Below, one piece after another: positions 1,233 to 57,859 of a DNA stretch of 64,000 bases (positions within the stretch are counted from its first letter, which is position 1; each line of letters begins with the position of its first letter). This stretch comes from Warburgia ugandensis (lineage: Eukaryota > Streptophyta > Magnoliopsida > Canellales > Canellaceae), in assembly GCA_035236585.1 (NCBI GenBank), contig CP141136.1, positions 57,863,136 to 57,927,135 of the forward strand, read 5' to 3'. The translations under genes and the position numbers were made by a program. The notes beneath the pieces were generated by a model that worked only from the letters and a program-made list of their open reading frames with translations, was not told the origin of the DNA and did not search any database.

Positions 1233-4200
1233 ATGCCTAGGAAGAAAGGAAGTAATGCTCCAAGACCTGAAGCCCCACTAGTGGACTCCACTGGGTCGAG
1301 CAACGGGATGGCTGAGTTATTCCAACAATTCTTACAGAATATGGGACAATACATGAATAGTCAAAGCCAAACTCCTACCCCCCGAGATCCTTCCCCTGAT
1401 AAAGCAATAGATAGGACTGAGGTTCAGTTAGAAAGGTTTCAGAAACTAGCTCCCTCATTCACAGGAGAAGATGAAGCATCTACAGCTAAATAATGGTTAA
1501 TTGATATTGAAAAGATATTTAAGGCCATGAACATAGCTGAAGAAAGAAAAGTACCCATGGCCACATTTGTGTTTAGAGGAGAAGCTACCTTTTGGTGGGA
1601 AACAGCAGAAAGAACTTATTTTGATCAGCAAGAAACAATAGGATGGGAAGAATTTAAAAAGGTCTTTAACGACAAATATTATCCTAAACATGTAAGGAAA
1701 CAGAAGGAAAAGGAATTTATGGACTTAGAACAAGGAAGTATGACCATCCAACAGTATGAAAGTAGAGTCATTAGCCTCCGAAGATTTGCACCACGTGCTT
1801 GTGCTAATGAGGAAGATGCGGCCGAAAGATTTGTAGATGAACTCAACCCAGGACTCAGGAACAGAGTTCTAGGTTTCCAACCTTCCACAATAGCCAAAGC
1901 CGTAGAGATGGCCTCCCTATATGAAAGAGATTATCAAAGGAACCAGGCAATAAGAGAAGTTAAGAACATCAACACCATGAAGAACAAAGGAAAGAGACCT
2001 TTTCAGTTATCTGGACCTAGGCCACCTTTCAAGAAGCCATTTGAAAACAAAGGAAGAAGACCAGACTGGAAGGCATGCCCTAGGTGTAACAGAAATCATC
2101 CAGGCAAACCATGTCCCACTTTCAACATCACTTGCTATAATTGTGGAGAATTAGGACATTTTTCTAGTAACTGTCCAAAAAGGAAAGTACAAGAGCGTAA
2201 AGAAGATCAAGTTCCAAAAATCCAAGGACGTGTCTTTGCCCTCACTTCCAGTCAAGCCCAAGCATCAAATGCAGTCGTTGAAGGTATTCTTTCTATCTAT
2301 GATACACCTGCTAAAGTTCTATTTGATACAGGCTCCACTCATTCTTTCATATCCTGGGAATTTGCATCATCCTTGGACATTATACCACAGGACCTAGACT
2401 TCACTCTAGAAGTCATGACTCCTGTAGGCCAGGCACTCCCCACTTATTCTTATCTCTAGGATGTCCCCATTTTGATTAAGGACCATTTGTTACATGCCAA
2501 CCTTATCCAGTTAGATATGAATGATTTCGACATCATCCTAGGTATGGACTGGCTAGCCTTTCATCAAGCCTTTGTTGATTGTCATCAGAAGCGTGTCACT
2601 TTTACCCTACCAAATAGAGACACTTTCACCCTCCAAGGAAGAAAGGATTATTCTGGAGCGTGTGTTATTTCTGCCATGAAAGCAGTTAAACACATTGCTC
2701 AAGGATGCCCCTTCTTCTTAGCCAAGATTGAATCCGTCAAGAGTCCCCAACCAAAGCTTGAGGATGCCGAGGTTGTCCGAGAATTTCCTGATGTATTCCC
2801 TGAGGACTTACCAGGTCTACCTCCACCAAGGGAAATTGAGTTCATCATTGACCTTATACCCGGTACTTCCCCCATTTCTAAAGCTCCTTACCGAATGGCT
2901 CCTATAGAACTAAGAGAACTGAAGACCCAGTTACAGGAACTACTTGACAAAGGGTTCATACGACCTAGCGTGTCTCCGTGGGGAGCTCCAGTCCTTTTTG
3001 TTAAGAAAAAGGATGGCCCCATGAGATTGTGCGTAGATTATCGGATGCTGAATAGGGTCACCATTAAAAATAAGTACCCTCTTCCCCGAATTGATGATCT
3101 TTTTGATCAACTTCAGTCAGCTAGAGTCTTCTCTAAGATTGATCTACGATCAGGGTACCATCAACTTCGAGTTAGAGAAGAAGATATCCCCAAGACAGCC
3201 TTCAGGACTCGATACGGCCATTATGAATTCAGAGTAATGTCCTATGGTTTGACTAATGCTCCAGCCGCGTTTATGGACCTCATGAATAGGGTGTTCAAGG
3301 AGTACTTAGATAAATTCATCATAGTGTTTGTGGATGATATCTTAATATATTCGAAACCCACGAAGACCATATGGAACATCTAAGGATAACATTAAGCACC
3401 CTACGAGCACACAAGCTATATGCAAAATTCAGTAAGTGTGAGTTTTGGCTAGAAAAGGTTAATTTCTTAGGACACATTATTTCTCAAGATGGCATAGCAG
3501 TTGACCCTACTAAGGTTGAATCGATTTAACTGGGAAAGACCTAAGGCAGTCCATGAGAAATAAGAAGCTTCTTAGGACTTGCCGGATATTACAGGAGATT
3601 CATCGAAGGTTTTTCACAAATGGCTTTACCTCTAACTAAGCTGACCAGGAAAGACACAAGATTTGAATGGACTGATAAATGTGAGGAAAGCTTCCAAGAA
3701 CTAAAAAGAAGGTTGACTACCACACCTGTCCTTACCTTACCTTCAGGAAGTGGCGGATTTGAGATATACAGCGATGCCTCGCAACAAGGGCTAGGCTGTG
3801 TACTTATGCAACATGGGAAGGTAATCGCTTATGCTTCTCGACAACTCAAGAAGCATGAAGTCAATTACCCAACCCATAACTTGGAATTAGCAGCCATAGT
3901 CTTTGCCTTGCGAATATGGAGACATTATTTATATGGGGAAAAGTTTGAAGTTTTTACATATCACAAGAGTCTTAAATATATCTTTTCCCAACAAGACTTA
4001 AACATGCGACAAAGAAGATGGATGGAATACTTAAAGGACTATGACTTCTACATTCATTATCACCCTGGAAAAGCTAATGTGGTGGCTGATGCATTAAGCA
4101 GAAAAACCCAAGGGATGAGTGCAAGTTTATTAACTAAGAGATGGAAGCTACTACAAGAACTAATCACATGGAAACTAGACATAAGTAAGCATAAGATCAT

Positions 4201-4777
4201 CATGGCAGGATTAACAATAAAGTCAGCTGTTAATGAAAAAGTTAAGCAAGAATAGAAAGGAGACCCGGATATACAAGCTTTCATAGGAAAACCAGGATTT
4301 ACAAAAAGGGAAGATGGTAGCGTTTACATGCAAGGAAGATTAGTGGTACCGGCTAATGAAGAGTTAAGACAAGAAATCTTAAAAGAGGCTCATCGCTCCA
4401 AGTATACAATACACCCAGGAGGGACTAAGATGTATCAAGACTTAAAGAAACAATATTGGTGGGATGGTATGAAAAGAGACATAGGGGAATTTGTGGCAAA
4501 GTGTTTAACATGTCAGCAAGTAAAGGCTGAACATCAAAGACCTGCGGGATTGTTACAACCCCTTGAGTTACCCGAATGGAAATGAGACCATATCACAATG
4601 GACTTCATCGTAGGGCTACCCAAGACCTCTAAGGGTCATGACATGATCTAGGTAATTGTTGATAGATTAACTAAGACAACCCATTTCCTTCCTATACGTC
4701 ATACCCAATCCACTGACAGCCTATCTCAGCTATACATCAAAGAGATAGTAAGTCAACATGGTATACCCCTTAGTATC
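1233..4777 (+). pseudogene. Element A gag-pol, first part (gag to integrase core)
   Basis: The ATG at 1233 opens a frame starting MPRKKGSN. Gag has a CCHC knuckle (CYNCGELGHF..NCP, about 2131-2175). Protease has the DTGSTHSF active site (about 2328-2350). Reverse transcriptase (about 2760-3360) carries FVDDILIYS. RNase H runs about 3620-4110, and the integrase zinc finger (H..H..CLTC) about 4380-4525. In-frame stops occur at 1491-1493 (TAA) and 2457-2459 (TAG). A one-base loss near 3356 breaks RT after the catalytic DD, and more stops lie near 3526, 4252, 4583 and 4650. The frame ends where element B entered. Catalytic motifs survive, but no full polyprotein can be made. Confidence 0.93.
4773..4777 (+). 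repeat. Left target-site duplication of element B (GTATC)
   Basis: GTATC immediately precedes the TGTAATATCC start of LTR B and recurs at 15389-15393. It lies in the integrase reading frame of element A, which resumes cleanly after the second copy. Confidence 0.95.
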
Positions 4778-7759
4778 TGTAATATCCTTAATTTTAAAGA
4801 TAAAAATAGGAAATTATTAAATAAATTAAAATAAAATTTTATGGATGAAATTCTTTCCTGAAAACATAATAATTAGAAAGTGCTCGTCGATACGAATCCA
4901 ACGCCACCAAGAACGCGAGAAACGGAGCTCAAACGAGGGAGTTATGAGCCGTCAAAGTTGGAAGGGCAAATTAGTCATTTGATAGAGACGTATTAGACAG
5001 GGGTCCAAATTGATACTGGCACCCCCGTCTTCCACACGTCTCTACCAGTGCCGGAAAAATCGCCGGAGAGACGTGGAAAGAGGCGTGAATGGAAGAGGTT
5101 CTCTTCCCCTGGGACTCTAGGCCTATATCTACCCTCCCCAGGTTGCCAAAACGCTCCACTTTGAGCGTTTTCTCTGAGTATTTACGCAAAACCCTAGCCT
5201 GTAAAAACTTGAATTTTCCGGCGAGTGGAGCCCCGGCAACACGAGCAACTCCGGCCAGGTGCAAGGTAAGCCTCAAAACCTATGTTTTTATGTATTTATT
5301 AATTAGAAAATTAATTAGAAAACCATTTAAAAATTAGGAAAAAAAATCGGATTTTTGGGGGCTTTGTGCACGCTACTGTTGGAGCGTGATTTCATAGACC
5401 AAACGTTGTCCGTTTGGAAATCGCACCGTCCAACTAGTGCAAAAGACACCCAAGAGAAAACCCTTTAAATTTGGGAGTGATCCAACGGTGGAATTGCGAA
5501 AACTCAAAAACCAGTACCTAGGGAGGTTTTTAGGAACTTGGGAAAAATCGTTTAAAAACCATGGTTTTTGAGAAAATTAGTGACAAAGGAGGGCATAAAT
5601 GGATTCTAGAGAGAATTCTGAAGAAAATGGCGCAAAAATCACGCAAAACGGAGCTCAGAGTTCGCCGAGGCGACCGGAATCCTGGTCGTCTTCTCCGGCC
5701 GTCGTCAACGCGTCGGCGCCTGCGCCGACGCCAAGACGCACACCACGACGCCCGAGGGACGACGTCACATGACGTCGTCGCCGCACGCGTGCGCGGGCGC
5801 CGCGCGCGTGCGGACGCCCTGCCGTTGGGCTGTCGCGGTGGGGCCGGGACGCGGCGCGTCCTGGCGACCTTGACGCACGCGCGCGTGCGTCACGGCGCAG
5901 AAGACGCGCGGCGCGCGGCCCGTGCGGCATCCGCGACGCCGTGCGTCTTCGTGCGCCAGAGTACGTCCGGTATAAACCGGCGGAAAAGGGCGCCGCCGGT
6001 TTAAACCACCTTATGGTGGTCGGCAGGCCCCATTTGAGGGTAGTTTTCACTAAAACTTGATTTTTGGGAGCTAGAGAGGTCCAAATCACGATCCTAAGAG
6101 GCGTTGTGACCGTATTGACGACGCGGACCTAGTATTAACTTAAAAACTTAGAAATGACCACTTTTTATTTAGGAAAATTTTAAAATAGAGATGTGACATG
6201 TGCAGGTGCACTTGAATATACCAATTAAAGGGAGTTATTAGCAAGCTAGTGATCTCACACGGAGGTAGGTGACGACAACTAATGTTTTGCCTTGATTTTA
6301 AACCATGTTTTAAACATAGCATCATGTGTGATTGTGTTTTAAAGTGCGATTTTTATTTACCATGGATTTCATGCGACATTGCGCATGGGATGGTTATTCC
6401 AAATTGAATTCTTTTACCGAATAAACTTATTTAAACCGCTTTTATAAGCATGATGTTAAGTAGTTATGCTTAATTAGAGATTTATTTCTTATTATATATA
6501 TAGAAAATGCATGGATTTACATGGAAATGAGTATAGAGGCTTAGTAGCTGGTCCTTTTATAGGCTAACCCCAGGATGAGGGGCATGTCTTGGGGATTGCA
6601 AGCTATAAGTGCTCTTGAGTTTTAGCATATACATATGATTTCCGTGTTTTATATTTGATGACGGTGCTCTCGCCGGTGGGCCATGCTGGAGGGATAGGGC
6701 GGCCACCCACCTTCCGAGATTATGATGTGATGAGTTTGTGATATGATAGACACCTGCCCATAGATGGCATTCGGTAGGGGTTTGGTAACATGGATAGTCC
6801 ACACTACTGGTCTGAGCCTTTCCATGGGGACAGACGTTAAGTCTCCCGTTATGGTGTCGACGGGGAGCGGCGGTGGTTGATACCCATGGAGGGTTGCCAC
6901 TGCAGCATGATGGCCCATATTCTTGTTATGTGTGCATGTATGATGAGCATGGTTATAGATGGTATGCCTGGGTGTGACGACACTCAGAGGTTGACTATGT
7001 GTACTCCTGATCAGGGATGTTAGTGCGATGTGGTGGGACCCATTACCTTAGGGTGCCCTTATTCTTGTTGTATGCTCCATGTTATTGATTCATGTCATGT
7101 TTTAACTCCGTGAATTTCATGTTTTAGCATATGGAATAAATTGGCATTTATTTGAACATGGCATTATGATATCACTATTTCCATAAATGTTATACTTTTC
7201 ATAAATGTTGTTCATTATTTCTTTCAATTATTACATTAATTGTCTATCTACCTGCACAAGCGATAGCTTCTTTGAGGCATTGCTTTGTTTTGCAATGCCT
7301 TAGATCTCGAGCGATAACAGGAAAGGCAAGGCTGTTGAGAAGCCGTGAGAGCTGCTGAAGACCATTTTTCTATAGTATTAGACAGTGATGTGAGTCATTA
7401 AACAGGATTATCATTTGGATTTTTATTATGGACTGCATATTTTATAATGGGATGTGATTTAGATCTTTGGACATTTATATGGGATGTTATGATGGATAGA
7501 CCCTGGGCCATATTATTACTGTCTTTTGGATGTTTATTTGATTTAAAATAAAGGCGCCTATTTATTTGACGTTGATTTATACGCGGATCATTTATTTGTG
7601 TTTAAATTACATGTACGCCATTTTGAGAAAGGAAAAATTAACACCCGGAGTTTTGAGATAGGTTTAGTAAAATGTTAAATAAATCTTTTCTCATGGGATC
7701 CCAAATGCTCTTATTTAAAATAAAAAAAAAAAAATGTCTTAAAAATCCGGGGTGTTACA
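4778..7759 (+). repeat. 5' LTR of element B
   Basis: The LTR is 2982 bp, starts TGTAATATCC and ends GGGGTGTTACA. It is AT-rich overall with a strikingly CpG-rich block at 5640-6005. It ends directly before the primer site at 7764. Confidence 0.95.
5640..6005 (+). promoter_or_regulatory. CpG-rich, palindrome-rich promoter-like block in 5' LTR B
   Basis: About 360 bp packed with CG dinucleotides inside an AT-rich LTR. It has a 22-bp perfect palindrome at 5871-5892 centred on CGCGCG and flanked by TGACG arms, plus a GACGTCACATGACGTC motif near 5761. TGACG is the core of plant as-1/TGA-bZIP sites. A TATAAA at 5971-5976 follows, which would place transcription start near 6000. The promoter role is inferred. 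Confidence 0.55.
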
Positions 7760-12409: not shown

Positions 12410-15388
12410 TGTAATATCCTTAATTTTAAAGATAAAAATAGGAAATTATTAAATAAATTAAAATAAAATTTTATGGATGAAATTCTTTCCTGAAAACATA
12501 ATAATTAGAAAGTGCTCGTCGATACGAATCCAACGCCACCAAGAACGCGAGAAACGGAGCTCAAACGAGGGAGTTATGAGCCGTCAAAGTTGGAAGGGCA
12601 AATTAGTCATTTGATAGAGACGTATTAGACAGGGGTCCAAATTGATACTGGCACCCCCGTCTTCCACACGTCTCTACCAGTGCCGGAAAAATCGCCGGAG
12701 AGACGTGGAAAGAGGCGTGAATGGAAGAGGTTCTCTTCCCCTGGGACTCTAGGCCTATATCTACCCTCCCCAGGTTGCCAAAACGCTCCACTTTGAGCGT
12801 TTTCTCTGAGTATTTACGCAAAACCCTAGCCTGTAAAAACTTGAATTTTCCGGCGAGTGGAGCCCGGCAACACGAGCAACTCCGGCCAGGTGCAAGGTAA
12901 GCCTCAAAACCTATGTTTTTATGTATTTATTAATTAGAAAATTAATTAGAAAACCATTTAAAAATTAGGAAAAAAATCGGATTTTTTGGGGGCTTTGTGC
13001 ACGCTACTGTTGGAGCGTGATTTCATAGACCAAACGTTGTCCGTTTGGAAATCGCACCGTCCAACTAGTGCAAAAGACACCCAAGAGAAAACCCTTTAAA
13101 TTTGGGAGTGATCCAACGGTGGAATTGCAAAACTCAAAAACCAAGACCTAGGGAGGTTTTTAGGAACTTGGGAAAAATCGTTTAAAAACCATGGTTTTTG
13201 AGAAAATTAGTGAAAAAGGAGGGCATAAATGGATTCTAGAGAGAATTCTGAAGAAAATGGCGCAAAAATCACGCAAAACGGAGCTCTGTAGCTCCGCCGG
13301 AGGCGACCGGAATCCGGCCGTCTTCTCCGGCGTCGTCAACGGCGTCGGCGCCCTGCGCTGACGCCAAGACGCACACCCTGACGCCCGAGGGACGACGTCA
13401 CATGACGTCGTCGCCGCACGCGTGCGCGGCGCCGCGCGCGTGCGGACGCCCCCGCCGTTGGCTGTCGCGGTGGGACCGGGACGCGGCGCGTCTGGCGACC
13501 GTGACGCACGCGCGCGTGCGTCACGGTGCCGAAGACGCGCGCGCGCGCGTCCCGTGCGGCGTCTGCGACGCCGTGCGTCTCGTGCGCCAGAGTACGTCGG
13601 TATAAACAGGCGGAAAAGGGCGCCGCCGGTTTAAACCACCTTATGGTGGTCCCGCAGGCCCCATTTGAGGGTAGTTTTCACTAAAACTTGATTTTTGGGA
13701 GCTAGAGAGGTCCAAATCACGATCCGGAAGAGGCGTTGTGACCGTATTGACGACGCGGACCTAGTTTTAACTTAAAAACTTAGAAATGACCACTTTTTAT
13801 TTAGAAAAATTTTAAAATAGTGATGTGACATGTACAGGTGCACTTGAATATACCAATTAAAGGGAGTTATTAGCAAGCTAGTGATCTCACACTGAGGTAG
13901 GTGACGACAACTAATGTTTTGCCTTGATTTTAAACCATGTTTTAAACATAGCATCATGTGTGATTGTGTTTTAAAGTGCGATTTTTATTTACCATGGATT
14001 TCATGCGACATTGCGTACGGTGATGGTTATTCCAAATTGAATTCTTTTTGAATAAACTTATTTAAACTGCTTTTATAAGCATGATGTTAAGTAGTTATGC
14101 TTAATTAGAGATTTATTTCTTATTATATATATAGAAAATGCATGGATTTACATGGAAATGAGTATAGAGGCTTAGTAGCTGGTCCTTTTATAGGCTAACC
14201 CTAGGATGAGGGGCATGTCTTGGGGATTTCAAGCTATAAGTGCTCTTGAGTTTTAGCATATACATATGATTTCCGTGTTTTATATTTGATGACGGTGCTC
14301 TCGCCGGTGGGCGTCATCTTGGGAGGGATAGGGGCCACCCACCTTCCGAGATTATGATGTGATGAGTTTGTGATATGATAGACACCTGCCCATAGATGGC
14401 ATTCGGTAGGGGTTTGGTAACATGGATAGTCCACACTACGGCCCGAGCCTTTCCATGGGGACAGACGTTAAGTCTCCCGTTATGGTGTCGACGGGGAGCG
14501 GCGGTGGTTGATACCCATGGAGGGTTGCCACTGCAGCATGATGGCCCATATTCTTGTTATGTGTGCATGTATGATGAGCATGGTTATAGATGGTATGCCC
14601 GGGTGTGACGACACTCAGAGGTTGACTATGTGTACTCCTGATCGTGATGTTAGTGCGATGTGGTGGGACCCATTACCTTAGGGTGCCCTTATTCTTGTTG
14701 TATGCTCCATGTTATTGATTCATGTCATGTTTTAACTCCGTGAATTTCATGTTTTAGCATATGGAATAAATTGGCATTTATTTGAACATGGCATTATGAT
14801 ATCACTATTTCCATAAATGTTATACTTTTCATAAATGCTGTTCATTATTTCTTTCATTTATTACATTAATTGTCTATGTACCTACACAAGCGATAGCTTG
14901 CTGAGGCATTGCTTTGTTTTGCAATGCCTTAGATCTCGAGCGCGATAACAGGAAAGGCAAGGCTGTAGAGAAGCCGTGAGAGCTGTCAAGACCATTTTTC
15001 TATAGTATTAGACAGTGATGTGAGTCATTAAACAGGATTATCATTTGGATTTTTATTATGGACTGCATATTTTATAATGGGATGTGATTTAGATCTTTGG
15101 ACATTTATGTGGGATGTTATGATGGATAGACCCTGGGCCATATTATTACTGTCTTTTGGATGTTTATTTGATTTAAAATAAAGGCGCCTATTTATTTGAC
15201 GTTGATTTATACGCGGATCATTTATTTGTGTTTAAATTACATGTACGCCATTTTGAGAAAGGAAAAATTAACACCCGGAGTTTTGAGATAGGTTTAGTAA
15301 AATGTTAAATAAATCTTTTCTCATGGGATCCCAAATGCTCTTATTTAAAATAAAAAAAAAAAATGTCTTAAAAATCCGGGGTGTTACA
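12410..15388 (+). repeat. 3' LTR of element B
   Basis: The LTR is 2979 bp and matches 4778-7759 nearly end to end. Differences are mostly single-base indels in homopolymers and in the GC-rich block (13260-13625), which repeats the CpG-rich promoter-like region with a 24-bp palindrome at 13501-13524 and TATAAA at 13601-13606. It ends GTGTTACA, followed by the GTATC duplication. Confidence 0.95.
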
Positions 15389-16286: not shown

Positions 16287-16299
16287 AAGGGGGTAAGAA
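16287..16299 (+). other. Polypurine tract of element A
   Basis: The purine-rich AAGGGGGTAAGAA lies directly before the LTR start TGTAATTACTCC at 16300. Confidence 0.8.
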
Positions 16300-18522
16300 T
16301 GTAATTACTCCAATTTTGTAATATTGAAATTCCAAGTTTAGCAATGAAAAGTTCAGTTTTTAAAGAAAAGGGCATTATAGTCATTTCACCATTCACCTTG
16401 ACTGAACCCATAAATTTGGTCCAAAAAGTAGTTCCATTAGATGCATCTCGGAAAAAGGAATCCAACGAGACCAAAATCACCCAAAACAGAGTTAAAATGA
16501 GCAAGATATGGCCCTTTGAAGTTCAGGGGCAAAACTGTAAATTTTACAAAAACGACTTAACCTGAAAAACACAGGGGCTCGTTTTGATACGGGCACCCTG
16601 TCGTCTTCAACCTCTAGAGGGTTCTAGAACGGAGGTGATTGGAGGAGAAATCACCGCCATTCTGGAGGTTTCTCCACCGCCATTCAAAGGCGGTGAGAGT
16701 CCCCTCAAGAACCCTCTCTTAGCTCTATAAATAGAGCTCTTGGGTGCCACTAATGGCAGCCCAAAACGTTGAAGAAAACTAGTCATGAAGCAGTGACCTA
16801 GAGGGGAAAACAAGGAGAAAAACCCAGCAACGAGCCAGGTACGTCCGAGATCGCTTAAAACCCATCTCCCCCATAGTTCCAAGGTCAATTTCCCTAAGTT
16901 TTTGCATGAAAAACCTTGCAAAATGGAGCCCAGGAGAGCCACCAAGGACCCAGGGACATTCCCTGGGCCGCACTGGTTTGACAGGGGTCGAACCAGGGTG
17001 TCCCAAGGATGCCCCGGTCCCCCAACGACGGAAAAGCCCAATTCGGATGAGACGTGTCGAATGCGTCTGAGAGGAAACCAACAGGCGCGTCCGTAGACGC
17101 GCCCGCTAAAGAGGCAGACGAGCGGAGCGTACCGCGCATCTGTAGATGCGCCCGCTGAGGCACAGGCCGCAGACGTGCAGCTCGCTAGCAGCGCGTCATC
17201 TTTTGGTTACTTAAGGAAGCTGGGGCGCACGTCGCAGACGCGTAGCGCCCTAGCATTCCGTCTTTTTATCTTTAAGACTCTATGTACATATGACACTAAA
17301 ACGCTTATAACTTGAGATCTAGAGCTCCGATTGAGGCGCCATAAAAGGCGTTGTGTCCATGTCGACGACGCGGACAATACAAACTATAAAATGCCTAATC
17401 AAGGCCCAATCAAATGTGAGCATGACCCTTAGAATAGGATGGTGGCGCGTGGCCATTAGAACTTTGGAAAACTAAGGATACCAAGGCTCAATTAGGACCT
17501 TAGGACACCCATAGGCATAGGGATGGACCCCTAATGCATAAGTAATAAGACCAATTACCCTAAAACCCATAAAAGATAGGCCAAACTAACCTTGATTTTC
17601 CCAAACCATGATCAGGAGCGTCTGAGGACAAAAAGGGTTAGCACGACCTAGCCAGGTAGGTGCTCTATCACTATTATATTCTTTTAAAAGAACTATTATT
17701 ATTTTGAGAACATATGTTTTAACTATATTACTTGATTTGCATGACTTAATTCAGCATGCATGATACATGCTTTGTACATAGCCATGTTTTGAAATGATTG
17801 CATATACATTATGCACATATATGTGTTGCAAACAAGTGCATACATTGCATGATTTAAATACTTGCAAAGATTGCATGTCATTGAGGGTTGCCAAAAGACG
17901 CTGGAGTGCCGAGGGCCAGACAGTTGTGAGGGACCCAAAGAGGACAAGTTTTATCAAGATGTTATCATATATATATATATATATGATACTTTCAATTTTG
18001 GATTATGTGATTTTTAAGTCATTAGTATTTCGGTTTGATAATGGATTCTTATACTGATATTGAACTCGAGTATTCAAACATACACATGTTTTGAATGAGC
18101 ATATGATTTTAAAACATCTCATGCATTTATAAAACTAGTAGTGATAGGCTCCTACTGAGTATAGTATATACTCACCCAATCCTCAACATTTTTCAGATAC
18201 AAAGTAAATACTTAAGGGCAAGGAACATTTGTACTAGGAGACACACACTAACTACAAGTAAGTAAACCCCTATCTTATCTTTCAATGTTACTTGATTGTA
18301 GTTACTCTCTAATAGTTGGGGCTGTGACTAACACTTTCTTGGGAATAATATTGATTTAAAATTTGCCATGGCTAAATAAATTGAGAATGTGTTTGAACAC
18401 TCGGGGTTTTTATGAAAGGTTGTTTTCCAAATGAGAAAGATTTTCATACATTTCATATTTATAAAACAAGAGATCTTGCCTTTTTATCAAAATTGCATCA
18501 TATAAAAACCCGGGTCGTGACA
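16300..18522 (+). repeat. 3' LTR of element A, with internal deletion
   Basis: The LTR is 2223 bp, begins TGTAATTACTCC and ends CGGGTCGTGACA. Relative to the 5' LTR it lacks about 392 bp; the junction is at about 17959 (ATCAAGA joined to TGTTATC). The missing part would bring it to the length of the related reversed LTR (2622 bp). Confidence 0.93.
16726..16733 (+). promoter_or_regulatory. TATA box in LTR A
   Basis: TATAAATA lies inside the near-palindrome AGCTCTATAAATAGAGCT. The same arrangement is conserved in the reversed LTR (42641-42658), which supports a functional core promoter. Confidence 0.6.
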
Positions 18523-25080: not shown

Positions 25081-25640
25081 ATGGAGAGATTGAGAGAGAG
25101 GTTATCTAGAGAATCCAAGCGGGTTGGAACAAATGGAGATGTGCATCTGGAGTTTTTGTGATCGATGAGTGCCACTCAAACTAAAAGAAAAATTCTATAG
25201 GATGGCCATAAGGCTGGCCATGCTCTATGGATTAGAGTGTTGGGCAATTAAGGAACATTATACTCATAGGATGAGCGTCGCAGAAATGAGGATGTTGATA
25301 TGGATGAGTGGTAAGACAAGAAAGAATAGAATTAGAAATGAAAATATTCAAGAAAATTTAGGGATAGCACCAATAGGTAACAAGATGAGGGAGATTAGAC
25401 TTAGATGATTTGGACATGTTCAAAGGAGACCGACAGCGGCACCAGTTAGAAAAAGTGAGGCAATATAAGTAGAAGGTTCTAAAAGGGCAAGGGGAAGACC
25501 CAAAAGAACATGGATAGAAGTGGTGAGGAATATATTAAAAACATTGGGACTAAATAAAGCCATGGTATTTAATAGAGTAGAATGGAGGATTAAGATTCAT
25601 GTGGCCGACCCCTAATTGGGATAAGGTCTTGATGATGATT
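25081..25640 (+). mobile_element. 5'-truncated L1-type LINE, ORF2 C-terminal end
   Basis: The sequence encodes the C-terminal part of plant LINE ORF2: an IQAGWNKWRCASGVF-like block, then FYRMAIRLAMLYGLECW, EMRMLIWMSGKTRKNRIRNE, LGIAPIGNKMREIRLR, FGHVQRRPTAAPVRK, GRPKRTWIEV and HVADP. A frameshift near 25160 and stops near 25406 and 25465 break it. The 3' end GGTCTTGATGATGATT is the family's GAT-rich tail. 5' truncation is the usual result of target-primed reverse transcription. Two relatives in the window share this tail. Confidence 0.88.
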
Positions 25641-34089: not shown

Positions 34090-34412
34090 AGTTTAGAATT
34101 AGAAATGAAAACATTAGAAGAAACTTAGAGCAGCAACAATAGGTAATAAGATTAGAAAGATTTGACTTACATGATTTGAACATGTTCAATGCAGACCCAA
34201 AATGGCACCAATTAGGAGTGAGGAAATCCAAATTGGAAGTTCTAAAAGGATAAGGGTAAAGCCCAAAAGAATGTGAATAGAAGTGATAAGAAAAGGTTTA
34301 AAAACTAAATCTAGCCATGACACTTAATAGAGGAAAATGGAGGAACAAGATTAATGTGACCAACCCCTAATCGGGATAAGGTCTTGATGACAATGATGAT
34401 ACCAAGAGTCTT
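34090..34412 (+). mobile_element. 5'-truncated LINE tail, second copy
   Basis: It aligns with 25340-25640: RIRNEN, IGNKIRKI, FEHVQ, GSSKRIR and IEVIRK blocks with several stops, then CCCCTAATCGGGATAAGGTC and the tail TTGATGACAATGATGAT. More decayed than the first copy. Confidence 0.82.
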
Positions 34413-40233: not shown

Positions 40234-40445
40234 TGTAATGACCCCAATTTTTGTAATATTAAAATCCCATGAAAAGTTCAGTTTTGAAGATAAGGGCATT
40301 TTGGTCATTTTACTAGTCGCCTTAACTGACCCCAGAAACTTGGTCCTAAAAATGGTATCATTAGATGCGTCTCGGAAAAAGGAATCCAACAAGACCAAAA
40401 TCACCCAAAACGGAGTTAAAATGAGCAAGTTATGGCCCTTTGAAG
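40234..40445 (+). repeat. Left arm of inverted repeat (forward U3 end)
   Basis: Matches the reverse complement of 42857-43068 with about seven substitutions. It equals the first ~210 bp of the LTR family seen at 16300. Confidence 0.92.
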
Positions 40446-42856
40446 TTGTGAATACCCGGGTTTTCTCATGCATTTTTAAATGCAATATTTAATTCCTAAG
40501 GCGGGATGCATCCCTATTTAAAAACTATTTTATAAAAACAATGCAATGCAGCAGAAAACCTTTTAGTTTTAAACTCATTTTTTTGAAAACCCCGAGTGTC
40601 ATTTGCCTACAAAACAACCAAAGTGGTTTTTGAAAAAACTTCAGAAATCACAAATGTTTTTCCCCAGGTCTTTGCAGTTACAACACATAGCCCAATTGTA
40701 AATAAATACATGTCCAAAGGGTAGAGAGTTTACTCACATGTATAGTTGTCTCCTTTGTTTATGCACTTGCTCATAGCACTAATATCTCCTGATATGTCTT
40801 CCATTAGTGGAACTATCCTGAAAAATGTTAAGGATAGGGTGAGTATATACTATACTCAGTAGGAGTCTATCACTACTAGTTTTATAATGCATACGATGTT
40901 TTAAAATCACATGCTCTCTCCAAAACATGTGCATGTCTGAATACTCAAGTTCAATATCGATATAAAAATCCGTTGTCAAACTGAAATACTAACGACTTAA
41001 AGGATCACATAATCCAAAATCGAAAGTATCGTATACATATATATCATAACATTATGATATGCATAAGATGCTTCATTGAATCCAACTCATGGATATCTAG
41101 TATGATATGGTCGACCAACCTCATATCATGCCATATGCAATGCAAATAAGTCCATAAACCATAGGGTCCAACTATGCCCACGACCTCCTCGCCGTGTGGT
41201 CCCCGGGTACCTGAGGACACTCTGTCATAGCCTCCACGGGGCCTATGACACGTCGACCCAGTGTCGTGACACCAGTGGTAGCCCCATGTACCACATGCAG
41301 TCGACGTAGGGACTTGCCTCTCTTTTGGGCGTGGTACCCATCCACCTAATAGTGGTAGAGGTCAGGTGGTCAACCCAGACCCCTCGGCATAGCACCCACG
41401 GGCTTACTAGCCCAAATCACATAAGATCAAATAAGCCAAAACCTCTTTTCAAAACTTGTCCTCTTTGGGTCCCTCACAACTGCCTGGCCCTCGGCACTCC
41501 AGCGTCTTTTGGCAACCGTCAAGGACATGCAATCTTTGCAAGAACTTAATGCTGATAGATCATGCAATGTATGCAATAGTTTGCAAAACATATCTATGCA
41601 TAATGTATATACAAAACATGTCTATGCATAAAGCATTTGTCACATGCATGCTAAACAATTCATATACTTAAATCATGTATTTGCAAAACAATCATAGTTC
41701 TTTTAAAAGAATCTAGTAGCAATAGAGCACCTACCTGGCTAGGTCGCGTTAACCCTTTTGTCCTCGTACGCTCCTGAACATGGTTTGGGGACTCAAGGTT
41801 AATTTGACCCATCTTTTATGGGTTTTAGAGTAGTTGAGTCTTGTTACTTAGGTATTAGGGGTCCATCCCTATGCCTATGGGTGTCCTAAGGTCCTAATTG
41901 GGCCTTGGTATTATCAGTTTCCCAAAGGTCTAGTGGGCACGCGCCACCATCCTATTCTAAAGGTCATGCCCACCTTTGATTGGGCATTGATCAGGGATTT
42001 TATAGTTTGGATGTGTCCGTGTCAGACACAACGCCTTTTACAGAGCCTCAATCGGAGCTCTAGATCTCAAGTTATAAGCGTTTTAGTGTCGCACGTACAT
42101 AGGCATCTTAATAATGAAAAAAAGGAATGCTAGGGCGCTGCGCATCTACGTCGTGCGCCCCAACTTCCCTAAGGAACGAAAAAATCCCGTAGCGCTAGTG
42201 CTGCGTGTCTGCGGCGTGCGCCTCAGCGAGCGCATCTACAGATGTTCCGGGTTTTCCATCCGACTGTCTCTTTTGCGGGCGAGTCCCTGGACGCGCCCGT
42301 TTGGTTTTTCAAACGGAGACAACGTGGGACGTTCCAACTGGAACGTCCTACTCGTTGGGGAACTGGGGCGTCCTCAGGACACCCTAGTTCGACCCTGTCG
42401 AACCAGTGCAGCCCAAGGGACGTCCCTGGGTCCTTGGTGAGTCTCCAGGGCTCCATTTTGCATGGTTTTTCATGCAAAAACCTAGGAAAATTGATCTTGG
42501 AACTATGGTGGAGATAGGTTTTGAGGGATCTTGGGCATACCTGGCTCATTACTGAGTTTTTCTCCTTGTTTTTCCCTCTAGGTCACTCCTTCACAACGGG
42601 TTTTCTCCAACCTTTTGGGCTGCCATTAGAGGCGCCCAAGAGCTCTATTTATAGAGCTATGAGAGGGTTCTGGAGGGGGCTCTCACCGCCTTTGAATGGC
42701 AGTGGAGAAACCTCCAGAATAGCGGTGATTTCTCCTCCAATCACCGCCGTTCTAGAACCCTCTAAAGGTTGAAGATGAAGGGTGCCCGTATCAAAACGGG
42801 CCCCTGTGTTTTGCAGCTAAATTCGTTTTTGTTAAAATTACAATTTTGCCCCTGAA

Positions 42857-43068
42857 CTTCAAAGGGCCATAACTTGCTCATTTTAACTCCGTTTTAGGTG
42901 ATTTTGGTCTTGTTAGATTCCTTTTTCCGAGACGCATCTAATGGTACCATTTTCAGGACCAAGTTCCTGGGTTCAGTCAAGGCGACTAGTGAAATGACCA
43001 AAATGCCCTTATCTTCAAAACTGAACTTTTCATGGGATTTTAATATTACAAAATTTGGGGTCATTACA
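42857..43068 (-). repeat. Right arm of inverted repeat (U3 end of the reversed LTR)
   Basis: Mate of 40234-40445. It ends GGTCATTACA followed by the TCATT duplication. Confidence 0.92.
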
Positions 43069-43121
43069 TCATTATCATTTATTTACTCTATGGGGTCGAG
43101 TCTTTTCAAGGGGGTGAGAAA

Positions 43122-44749: not shown

Positions 44750-44870
44750 TCGTCGTCATCATCATTATCAAGACCTTATCCCAATTAGGGGTCGGCCACA
44801 TGAATCTTATTCCTCCATTTCTCTCTATTAAGTACCATGGCTTCATTTAGTTCTAAAGTTTTAAATCTTT
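44750..44870 (-). mobile_element. LINE 3' tail, third copy, reversed
   Basis: The reverse complement reads AAATGGAGGAATAAGATTCA, TGTGGCCGACCCCTAATTGG and GATAAGGTCTTGATAATGAT with the GATGATGACGACG tail, the same 3' end as at 25600-25640 and 34370-34412. Only about 120 bp remain. Confidence 0.78.
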
Positions 44871-46429: not shown

Positions 46430-46825
46430 TCCCCAACAGCAAGATGATAGACTCAACCAATTCAAACAAATGGTAATGAATTCTCAATGGAAGAATCAGA
46501 TACAGACTTTCCAATTACAACAAATCAAGCTGACAGAATCAGTTATATGAATTATACAAGTACTGGTTTTTGTCTACAGAGTTTCCTGATTACACTTTCT
46601 AGCTTTCGAGGAGCTAAATCCTCCCACTCTTCCTTCCTTCTACTAGTTCTTCCATATCCCCTCTTGATTTTCCTTCCTTTCTTTTATTTCTCCCACTCTG
46701 CCAAATGTTCTTCCTCCCTACCGTAACCGAACTTTGTTTGGTCCTCTTTTTTGTTATTTTCTGTCAACAACCTATCCTTTCTGTTATAAAATTGGAAGAC
46801 TAATTGTCTAATAATAACCCCCCTA
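46430..46825 (-). repeat. Probable 3' LTR of the H+-ATPase-carrying gypsy element
   Basis: On the minus strand a polypurine run (GTTTTAGGGGGG) follows the integrase tail, then TTATTATTAGACAATTAG and a purine-rich body with GGGAGGATTTAGCTCC. Position and composition fit a 3' LTR. No 5' partner is visible beyond 49745, so the limits are approximate. Confidence 0.4.
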
Positions 46826-46834
46826 AAACTGCCA

Positions 46835-46952
46835 CCTTGTCCTCAAGGTGGAAGTCAGGGAACTACATCTGAATGACATTCATTTGTTCCCAGGTGTTGT
46901 CAGGTAGGCTCCAGACCCTCTTTGCCAAAGTCTTTTTGATTTGTGTAGTGCT
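46835..46952 (-). pseudogene. Integrase/chromodomain C-terminal tail of the chimeric element
   Basis: The translation RVWSLPDNTWEQMNVIQM, stop, FPDFHLEDKVAVLGG matches the end of gypsy polyproteins (TWE..., FPxFxLEDKV). One TAG replaces a likely CAG. It is fused in frame to the preceding ATPase. Confidence 0.82.
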
Positions 46953-48019
46953 CTTATCTAGAACCAACCCCCAAGTTCTCCCACTAAGTGCATATCGAAC
47001 AAAGAATTTTATAGGATCAAGAAGAAGGTAAGATACAAGATTGAAGAGCTAAATAACCTCAGCCCAACACCTACCAATCTTTTGTATTCTAGCAAAATTC
47101 TAGTTTGCTTTAGCAAATATGACACTAGCAATCAGTTGAGCGATGAGAAAAGCAGCAACAAGCAAAAGACCCAGACGTTCCGTGAAAGACCAGCCCCTTG
47201 AACGAGTAACAAATATCAATGCATGGCTAATGATGCTCACTTGCAGATACACAGCAAATGCAAGCATTTGTTGGTTAGCTTTCACAGCATCATCATTCAT
47301 CTTGTCTAACTTATGCTTGTTTAAAGTCGAAACCTTGGAATTATTAGCTGCCCAAAAGAATATAATAGTCATGACAGCCAGATAATTTCCACTCACAACT
47401 CCATTTGCAAATATTTCACTAAGTTTCCAACTATCATGAAGTGGAGAAGGCTTAACCTTATCCTTGGAAATTGTCATAATAGTACCATCGTTAGGAACGG
47501 CAATGACAAGAACCATGAAAGGAGGAAAGTTGAATTCCTAGAAGAGAGCTAGTAACAAAAATCCAAGCATTATACAGGTGGTGAAAGACATAGCATATAT
47601 CCTATAGTTTTTCATTCTCTAAAAAATTGCATGGCTTGTTAAAACAGCACTAATGATAGCACTCAGTCCAGGCTCTGTTAGAACTATGTCAGAAGCACTT
47701 CGGCCAGCATCTGTGGCATCAGCCACTGCAATTCTTATGTCTACCTTTTTTAAAGCAGGTGCATCATTAACCCCATCACTAGTCCTTTCGCAGATGTGCT
47801 TTCTAGCTTGCAGTTTCTTCACGATATCATATTTATGTTTAAGAAAGACTCCAACAAAACCATTAGCCTCATCCTTACTTTCTCCCAACAAAGATGAAGA
47901 TGGATACTGTTAGTACCCATTCCCAAGCGACGCCTTGTTTCCTTAACAATTGCCAATTGATCTCTTGTAATCATCTTAATGCTTACTCCTAGATCCAAAG
48001 CTCTTCTAATTGTTTCTAC
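46953..48019 (-). pseudogene. Captured plasma-membrane P-type H+-ATPase segment (processed)
   Basis: It covers the P domain onward: [107 protein letters not shown] and RYALSGRTWGLVLD. In the living enzyme this region holds the phosphorylation-domain hinge GDGVND and TM5-10. Here MITGDQ reads MITRDQ and TGDGVND reads TSDGVND. About 20 residues are missing after [10 protein letters not shown], and there is a frameshift after GMGTN. Stops lie near 47625, 47536, 47105 and 47048. No introns interrupt it, unlike genomic plant H+-ATPase genes, so it derives from mRNA. The N-terminal half and the regulatory C-tail are absent. Confidence 0.9.
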
Positions 48020-49530
48020 ACCTTTCAAGATGATATGACGCCCATTCGCTCTGAAATGCATGGTCAGATTATGAAAATTTGCTGAAATCTCTCTTAAGGT
48101 TTCTAGCCATGCTACCCGCAGGACCATGTTTGCTCCGCCAAGGTCGAGCGGGTAGAATTCTTGAACCACCGTGATCCCTCGCATATTCAATTTTATCTGC
48201 CAACAGATGCCTTGCCCTTTGATGCAGTGACTGTTCCCCACTTGTACTCTGAACAAACATGATTGATCCACTGTCAAATGGAGTTTTTCGACTAATGGGT
48301 TGGAGATGAAGTTGTGGGAAGCTCCACTGTCAATCAAGACTACCACCTCCCTCTTTTCAATTAGTCCCTTTAGTTTCATCGTGCCTCCTGTCATGAAACC
48401 TGAAATGGAGTTTAAGAATAACTCTAGAAGTTGGTTATCTTTTGTCATGTTGTCGTCTCTGTCTGCTGGAGTGATTTCCATCTCATCGTCTTCATCGTCG
48501 GCGAGGAGCAGCACTTACAATTGTCAATTTTTACATCGGTGGCCCAGTGGATATTTCTCGGCACATCTATAACATAATCCTTGGGATCTCCTTTGTTGTA
48601 ACTCAACATCTGTGAGTTTCCTTAAGGGTTCCCTTTTTCTGACAAGTTGTACATTGACATTCTTTTCTTAATTGGTTCCCATATGGAAACCCTTGTTTCT
48701 CTCATGGTTGGGGAAGAAGATGGGTGACTTACCAAAATGTCCCTACAAAGATACTCCCATCAACCCTCCTTTCGACTGAACATGGATAGGTCCAGTCATT
48801 CTTGAGCCAGCATCCTGTCTAATTGGACGGACCTCTATTCGGTCCAACGCCATGTTCTTCTCTTCTATTTTGTGGGCTAAATCCATAAGCCCATATAAAG
48901 ATGCAGGCTTGAATAATTTTATTTTGGCCTTGATATCTTCCTAAAGCCCATTCAAGAAGGCTCTCTTCAATAGATCGTCGTAAAGATCACTTAGGTGACC
49001 AGAGAGAAGCTTGAATGACCAGAGATACTCAGCGACACTTCCAGTCTGCCTCAAAGCCAGAAGAGATTCATAATCATTGTCTCATTCAGAAGATCGAAAA
49101 CAATGCAGCAGGGATGACCAGAAAGAATCCCATGATCAGAAGGGATTTCTTGATTACATCCATAAAAACCAGGAGAGAGCATCTCCCTCCATGCAAATGG
49201 TTGCTGCTGGTATCTTCTCCTCGTCGGATATGTGGTTGACCTAAAAATATCATTCAGCTCTACATAACCAACCATAGGGATCTTGGCAATCGAACACTGG
49301 CAAATCCAATCTCCTCCCTTGAAACTCATGACGGTGATGATCCCTCGACAAGATGGAACTCCTTCTATCTGAGGGTTCTCCCTCTTCCGTAGTCCTATGC
49401 TGATCTCCACATTCCTCTAACATTTCTCTATTCTTGATCCATTCTCTTATTTCTACTAGATATTTACCGAATGCATTTACATTCGTTTGTAATCTCCCCA
49501 TGTTTTCCCTCAAGAATGGTGTTTGGGGCA
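48020..49530 (-). pseudogene. Gag and protease of the chimeric gypsy element
   Basis: Gag motifs in order on the minus strand: RRLDLPVFDCQDPYGWLCRA, MEGDALSWF, LLALRQTGSVAEYLWSF, KRAFLNGL, GLMDLAHKIEEKNMAL, then knuckle-like GLCYRCAEKYPLGHRCKN and [13 protein letters not shown]. Protease follows with [15 protein letters not shown] and the [11 protein letters not shown] and [13 protein letters not shown] blocks. Several frameshifts and stops break gag; protease to ATPase is one open frame of 231 codons (48514-47819). This is the CCHC-variant gag style (RCxEKYxPGHxC) of chromodomain gypsy elements. Confidence 0.85.
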
Positions 49531-49664
49531 AAATTGTTCAAATCCCAATTTTCCTTACAAGTAAGCGTAGTAGATAAAAGCAATGCTTGGGTTGGGTTTG
49601 AGTTAAAAGACAACCTAGCTATCTCATGCTTCTTCAATTGTCTCTCTCTTATCACTCTGCCTTT

Positions 49665-49744
49665 GTCAAGATGGCTGAGTTCTTCTAAGGCACCAGTTTC
49701 AGGTACTGGTTTGAAAGGGCATGGGTTCAAATCGCATTCTTGAC
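49665..49744 (+). tRNA. tRNA-Leu(CAG)-like sequence, probably a pseudogene
   Basis: 80 nt with a perfect 7-bp acceptor stem (GTCAAGA/TCTTGAC), anticodon stem CCAGT/ACTGG and loop TTCAGGT (anticodon CAG), a long variable arm as in class II tRNAs, and a T loop GGTTCAAATC. The D loop lacks the GG pair (TTCTTCTAA instead of TGGTCTAA), the T stem has one mismatch, and no TTTT terminator follows. Either a decayed gene or tRNA-derived insertion next to the chimeric gypsy element. Confidence 0.7.
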
Positions 49745-49799
49745 AAAAGTTTCTACTTTCAATATGCCAAGTTATATAAAATTTTTGTTATCATGAGAA

Positions 49800-53920: not shown

Positions 53921-57859
<3,939 letters not shown>

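Follow-up and report, generated by a model that had tools for sequence, protein, structure and literature searches.

A Ty3/gypsy LTR-retrotransposon family of Warburgia ugandensis with a plasma-membrane H+-ATPase cDNA fragment in place of reverse transcriptase and integrase

The DNA analyzed here (the window) is a 64,000-nucleotide stretch of the Warburgia ugandensis genome (contig CP141136.1, positions 57,863,136 to 57,927,135). On its minus strand, at 49514-46445, lies a broken copy, truncated at its 5' end, of a non-autonomous family of Ty3/gypsy LTR retrotransposons (Table 1). The best protein match is P0121 from Citrus, a protein with gag, protease (PR), reverse transcriptase (RT), integrase, and chromodomain regions that bears a PF00385 chromo domain and matches gag-PR at 35% over 528 aa. 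The tblastn match to P0121 at 49534-47963 stays in a single frame interrupted by stops, and the gag-PR of the window copy contains 10 in-frame stops. A Pfam search identified the aspartyl protease (PF08284, 8.4e-11) and no domain in four other pieces besides the protease piece (the fifth piece is out of frame). Similarity to sister copies begins at 49514, and the DNA beyond that point is different, indicating that the 5' end of the element is missing. A local search found no LTR pair for the window copy because this truncation removed the 5' LTR. The DNA that replaces the missing end holds an intact-looking tRNA-Leu(CAG) at 49664-49746 on the plus strand, antisense to the element.

Table 1. 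Features of the element copy in the window (positions count from the first base of the window)
Feature	Position	Strand	Basis or remark
gag and aspartyl protease, Ty3/gypsy chromovirus type	48022..49514	-	tblastn with P0121, PF08284, copy homology
5' junction, protease to ATPase, mid-exon E1 of host gene	48019..48025	-	kept in 17 of 18 full copies
Intron-free fragment of captured plasma-membrane H+-ATPase cDNA, spanning 8 exon-exon joins	46901..48021	-	host cDNA 89-1274
3' junction, ATPase to chromodomain tail, mid-exon E9	46893..46913	-	kept in 17 of 18 full copies
C-terminal chromodomain/integrase tail	46831..46900	-	tblastn to P0121, 63% over 30 aa, match 46910-46827
Polypurine tract	46818..46830	-	directly before 3' LTR
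3' LTR, end ...GTCTATCA	46445..46813	-	comparison with sister copies; 5' partner absent from window copy

A preliminary description had reported one open frame (48514-47819, minus strand) that leads from gag and protease directly into a P-type plasma-membrane H+-ATPase. That frame is present, and the PF08284 protease does pass in frame into the ATPase, with the join at about 48022/48021 rather than at 48019/48020. The open frame ends within the ATPase because of a 1-nt deletion near 47909 that is private to the window copy; deletions of 39 nt and 4 nt are also private to its ATPase, and a 21-nt deletion is common to all 18 full copies described below. The captured part aligns with residues ~499-886 of plant pumps. 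The chromovirus tail proposed to follow the ATPase is borne out by the match to P0121. It is not, however, reached in frame as had been supposed: copies that keep both frame and join meet a stop just past the junction (TGA; TAA in some), and the continuity apparent in the window copy results from its private 4-nt deletion. The ATPase also reaches farther than the limit of about 46953 first given, to about 46901.

The best donor is an H+-ATPase gene on contig C6 (C6:7027000-7036900, locus L026), whose nine relevant exons have GT-AG borders. Alignment to this gene places the captured stretch between position 89 of the 145-nt exon E1 and a point 53 nt into exon E9. It thus crosses eight exon joins, and the element copies lack all eight donor introns, as the preliminary description had noted for the window copy; both capture ends fall mid-exon. 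Capture at splice sites was considered and is rejected on the position of these ends. All 18 copies are nearer to the C6 gene (91-93.5% identity) than to its paralog on C14 (88-91%). At the 67 sites that separate the two genes, the commonest base among the copies agrees with C6 at 48 sites, with C14 at 16, and with neither gene at 3. The 16 C14-like sites would fit changes in C6 after the capture, and the donor may have been a close paralog of C6 that has since been lost. The 21-nt deletion ends at the donor exon 6/7 (E6/E7) border, and the new exon end that it creates has no GT donor; it may have arisen by alternative splicing or by slippage. Among the 120 pump matches listed, the host pump is nearest to Tasmannia (86.9%), followed by Magnolia and Aristolochia. 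Odd ATPase gene models in other plants hinted at introns.

A search of the assembly (1,122,538,268 bases in 14 contigs), in which the best 40 of 156 candidates were scored so that the copy count is a lower bound, found at least 18 places, counting the one in the window, that hold the ATPase stretch in full; two of these lie in tandem on C1. Each junction is lost only once among them. Locus L024, which begins at host position 130, lacks the 5' junction, and L013 lacks the 3' junction. None of the 18 full copies has RT-integrase homology inside. The exchange of RT-integrase for H+-ATPase cDNA in a Gypsy element, as first read from the window, is therefore upheld by the copies, by the intron-bearing host gene, and by an RT-bearing relative (L033, below). 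At C1:39429500-39439400 (L011), two ATPase-bearing bodies lie head to tail and are separated by an LTR (the LTR starts are 4966 and 8281), an arrangement that recombination or template switching would leave behind. At L010, the final 185 nt of the captured ATPase are doubled in tandem (oriented positions 5187-5371).

Many more members have lost most of the ATPase. A gag query gave 533 first-look candidates, of which the best 40 were scored; these yielded 44 rows. Classification covered 40 long gag matches at 82-100% identity, drawn from these best-scored candidates rather than from the whole family, and 39 of the 40 carry captured ATPase sequence or a remnant of it. Class A (full ATPase) accounts for 6 of the 40 and class B, with the middle of the ATPase deleted, for 1. 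Class C, which retains host positions 89-502, accounts for 3, and one further locus, L058, retains 89-242. Class D (24 of 40) is reduced to a scar of at most 79-82 bp, from host position 1193-1198 to at most 1274, while class E (4 of 40) starts at host position 1077/1078. The last is L061, a broken copy in which the 1,001 bp read include no ATPase. The other 4 of the 44 rows comprise L033, at 67% and without ATPase, and three short matches. Judged by coordinates, the ATPase-copy search also yielded three additional class B places, along with additional class C ones. The eight class D joins displayed are identical and lie at a stretch that is alike on both sides (CCTGAGGGT / CCTGGGGGT); class D itself therefore likely spread from a single deletion. 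From the 533 gag candidates, we would guess that the family numbers several hundred copies.

The structure of these elements is that of LTR retrotransposons, as evidenced by TG/CA LTRs, a primer-binding site (PBS), a polypurine tract (PPT), and short target-site duplications (TSDs). The gag-PR lineage and the C-terminal chromodomain place the family among the Ty3/gypsy chromoviruses. Class A elements without later additions measure 3.59-3.67 kb (L009, L015, L019, and L021), and the class D elements L029 and L030 measure about 2.4 kb. The family LTR runs TGTTAGAC...TATCA; the window copy holds the 3' LTR only. The PBS, TGGTATCAGAG, follows the 5' LTR exactly in 9 loci and is recognizable in all 16 loci displayed; we take it to be of the tRNA-iMet type. 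Perfect 5-bp TSDs flank 13 of the 14 elements tested (10 of class A, 1 of class B, 2 of class D, and 1 of class C), the sole exception being L031 (class C). The left flanks of the tested elements are unlike each other, save for a 184-bp match between L010 and L015. Divergence within LTR pairs of 15 elements is 0.020-0.089 (K2P). At 1.3e-8 and 1.5e-9 substitutions per site per year, the two rates used for dating LTRs, this corresponds to 0.8-3.4 million years or 7-30 million years, respectively.

Among the 18 full copies, the ATPase has rates of 0.081, 0.077, and 0.066 at codon positions 1, 2, and 3, as compared with 11, 12, and 44 differing sites between the two host genes on C6 and C14. Stops occur in all 18 ATPase stretches (1-7 per copy). 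One nonsense change, TGG to TAG, is common to 15 of the 18 and absent from L021, L022, and L023, which argues that the copies spread after that change. The gag-PR rates of 11 class A/B copies are 0.104, 0.102, and 0.108, and gag contains 2-10 stops per copy in all 17 copies counted. As judged by these rates, the ATPase evolves neutrally, and so does gag-PR among class A/B copies. With its N-terminal half missing, stops everywhere, and no third-position excess, the ATPase is best regarded as a passenger and not as a working pump. A functional retrogene or selected fusion protein is rejected, given that no purifying selection on the reading frame is seen. No gag-ATPase chimera was found in annotated proteins: the best 120 of 563 matches were 23 protease and 97 ATPase matches, none of them both, and none of 241 collected proteins was such a chimera. 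Searches of viral contigs and plasmids likewise found nothing.

The ATPase cassette sits beside two different gag lineages. When L021, L022, and L023 are compared with L009, LTR windows are 83-96% and ATPase windows 89-95% alike (79% in one L023 window), whereas gag is only 64-81% alike. Differences between the two gag lineages are most frequent at third codon positions (0.23, 0.16, 0.36; L021 and L023 against 11 copies); the lineages thus likely diverged before gag lost its coding function, and both came to be joined to the same ATPase afterward. The LTRs vary as well. Those of L029 and L030 (class D) and L031 (class C) begin with TGTTACAT and not with TGTTAGAC, the class A LTR occurs in two class D loci (L036 and L049), and the L029 tail looks nearer to the tail of L033. 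These gag and LTR mosaics point to recurrent template switching between co-packaged RNAs in this ATPase-bearing family. Amplification, deletion subfamilies, and gag exchange all go beyond the preliminary description.

What the ATPase replaced can be read from an RT-bearing relative in the same genome. Locus L033, on C8, matches P0121 in the order gag, RT, integrase, and chromodomain, in several frames (it is broken), and has no ATPase. The alignment of L033 with L009 breaks off at L033 position 1396, 7 nt short of the L009 ATPase, and picks up again at 4351, where the ATPase has its last base; the ATPase therefore occupies the place of about 2.95 kb of RT-RNase H-integrase. To judge from sequence comparison, L033 is not the direct ancestor. 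The element as it stood just before the capture was not found (the gag of L033 is only 67% alike to that of the family), and the micro-homology at the two capture switches is for this reason putative. At the 3' join, some copies agree with the host over 12 nt (GGAGGCTGCCTG, preserved in L021 and L022); at the 5' join, some agree with it from GTGCAG onward. Among the loci examined, no RT-bearing element with the family's LTR was identified, and mobilization in trans is accordingly put forward as a prediction. At L020, an RT-bearing element of another family begins within the 3' LTR (oriented from about 5747; C9:65.966 Mb), with a PBS at 6231 and RT homology from 7983. It was considered as a mobilizing partner and rejected, as its LTR is different and its gag matches are short, at 67-68%.

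We propose that the family very probably arose when template switching captured a spliced host H+-ATPase mRNA in place of RT-integrase, and that the resulting chimera, predicted to be mobilized by RT-bearing relatives, gave rise to the at least 18 full copies and their shortened descendants. In this scheme, the spliced ATPase mRNA would have been co-packaged with element RNA in one particle. During reverse transcription, synthesis would have switched from the tail to the ATPase mRNA and then from the ATPase mRNA to the protease region, two switches that would put about 1.2 kb of ATPase in place of RT-integrase and thereby delete the latter. The chimera would have retained the LTRs, the TGGTATCAGAG-type PBS, and the PPT, with RT and integrase presumably supplied in trans by relatives. 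We infer template switching from the mid-exon junctions, the loss of introns, and the short matching stretches at the joins; a template-switching model has been proposed for LTR-mediated retrocopies and mRNA capture, according to the part of that report available (PMC5408686). The ATPase was likely taken up only once, as 18 scattered copies hold the same piece.

Intron loss by itself does not set this reading apart. A processed ATPase pseudogene made by a LINE and inserted in the element, followed by a deletion that trimmed the pseudogene and removed RT-integrase, would account for the missing introns too. Yet both ends of the fragment lie inside the mRNA: it breaks off in E9, with no 3' end, poly(A), or flanking duplication, and element homology begins again at the final base of the ATPase (L009 element position 3169-3170). 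An insertion plus two exact deletions would be required, and we consider this course of events quite improbable. Splicing of a hybrid transcript would strip introns as well, and the available portions of two reviews explain plant captures by such read-through (PMC13317346, PMC8616336). In this classical 3' transduction, transcription continues past an element located beside an ATPase gene, and the spliced product is reverse transcribed. However, both junctions fall within exons rather than at splice sites, and the ATPase is followed by element sequence. This route would still require at least one template switch back. Read-through therefore appears very improbable here.

Selection offers another way to explain why the fusion persists. 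The gag-PR-ATPase protein might have been kept because it serves the element or the host, a domesticated chimera as has been claimed for Bs1, the maize LTR element discussed below. The 5' junction fusion is in frame in most copies displayed, and translation of the Bs1 chimeric gene is reported in the available portions of the same reviews (PMC13317346, PMC8616336). Nevertheless, neither ATPase nor gag has a third-position excess among copies, every stretch counted contains stops (18/18 for ATPase, 17/17 for gag) with one nonsense change shared by 15/18, and the bulk of the ATPase is gone from most of the 40 gag loci; domestication is thus highly improbable. An assembly or cloning artifact can practically be discounted, since the 18 copies are dispersed and diverged, with flanks and TSDs that differ in the 14 elements tested. 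The two findings that would have spoken against the first reading of the window, ATPase introns at the expected sites and junctions peculiar to this one place, did not materialize: the ATPase is intron-free, and other copies have the same junctions. Capture by template switching remains the reading that we favor.

A comparable capture is known from maize. Bs1 lacks RT-integrase, makes 5-bp TSDs, and is present in 1-5 copies. In the parts of the literature available (PMC13317346, PMC8616336, PMC4717578), it is likewise a gag-keeping LTR element with exon-only plasma-membrane H+-ATPase sequence, and the likeness to Bs1 noted in the preliminary description holds for the mechanism, in that host exons without introns reside in an LTR element without RT-integrase. 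The two nevertheless differ. Bs1 carries the H+-ATPase plus two further gene pieces, whereas one captured gene was found in the Warburgia family. Bs1 is named among low-copy elements, in the part of that study available (PMC2774510), whereas the Warburgia family, in another plant clade, has at least 18 full copies together with deletion descendants. Moreover, the Warburgia family is without sign of a selected protein, and its cassette occurs beside two gag lineages. With Bs1 compared by description only, the same host gene was apparently captured independently in this distant plant.

Gene fragments in full-length LTR elements, many of them Gypsy, are described for maize, rice, and sorghum in the available parts of two studies (PMC2774510, PMC3726574). 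In maize, 425 elements derive from at least 189 captures, or about 2 per capture, by the portion of the report at hand (PMC2774510), and although plant LTR elements frequently acquire gene fragments, the captures usually remain at one or few copies (PMC7264820). By contrast, a single Warburgia capture lies behind at least 18 full copies, and 39 of the 40 long gag matches bear its trace. The family also resembles TRIM and LARD elements in keeping LTRs, PBS, and PPT without RT or integrase, with class D being strongly shortened, and the TRIM GmaRetroS15 contains exon-only gene pieces, according to the available part of its description (PMC4717578). Unlike these elements, the Warburgia family keeps a gag-PR remnant, and its internal part can be traced to a single host mRNA. 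The RT-bearing chromoviruses P0121 (Citrus) and L033 (same genome) have a gag-PR and a chromodomain tail homologous to those of the family and differ from it in that RT-RNase H-integrase is present and the ATPase absent. No description of this ATPase-bearing family was found in the literature covered, which comprised titles and the starts of abstracts and lay outside most subscription journals.

Host-exon capture by LTR elements is known; how far this family has spread, its graded series of deletion classes, and the presence of the cassette in two gag lineages are unusual. It is probable, in our estimation, that one capture founded a non-autonomous lineage of perhaps several hundred copies, that repeated template switching carried its cassette from one element lineage to another, and that this cassette was then trimmed to a 79-bp scar that marks the family. 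A single genome thus lets a capture be traced from an intron-bearing donor to dispersed copies, and on to deletion classes and gag exchange. Because the host gene is the same as in Bs1, one can now ask, and test, whether H+-ATPase mRNA is packaged with unusual frequency. The family also provides a worked case of how gene capture can make an autonomous element a parasite of its relatives.

Other repeats occur in the window. A ~119-bp repeat, which resembles the 3' end of an Au-type SINE, lies at 44753-44870, 25534-25639, and 34303-34400, and it is also found at 87-93% in L014, L023, L024, L029, L030, and L031. Direct repeats of ~3 kb (97.3%) at 4778-7759 and 12410-15388, with gag-pol remnants between and before them, perhaps represent the LTR pair of a large Gypsy element. 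Additional repeat copies, 83-99% identical and in some cases inverted, occupy 1-1092, 16299-18522, and 40234-43069. Finally, the region 57080-57580 holds a low-complexity open frame with a long (RE)n stretch.
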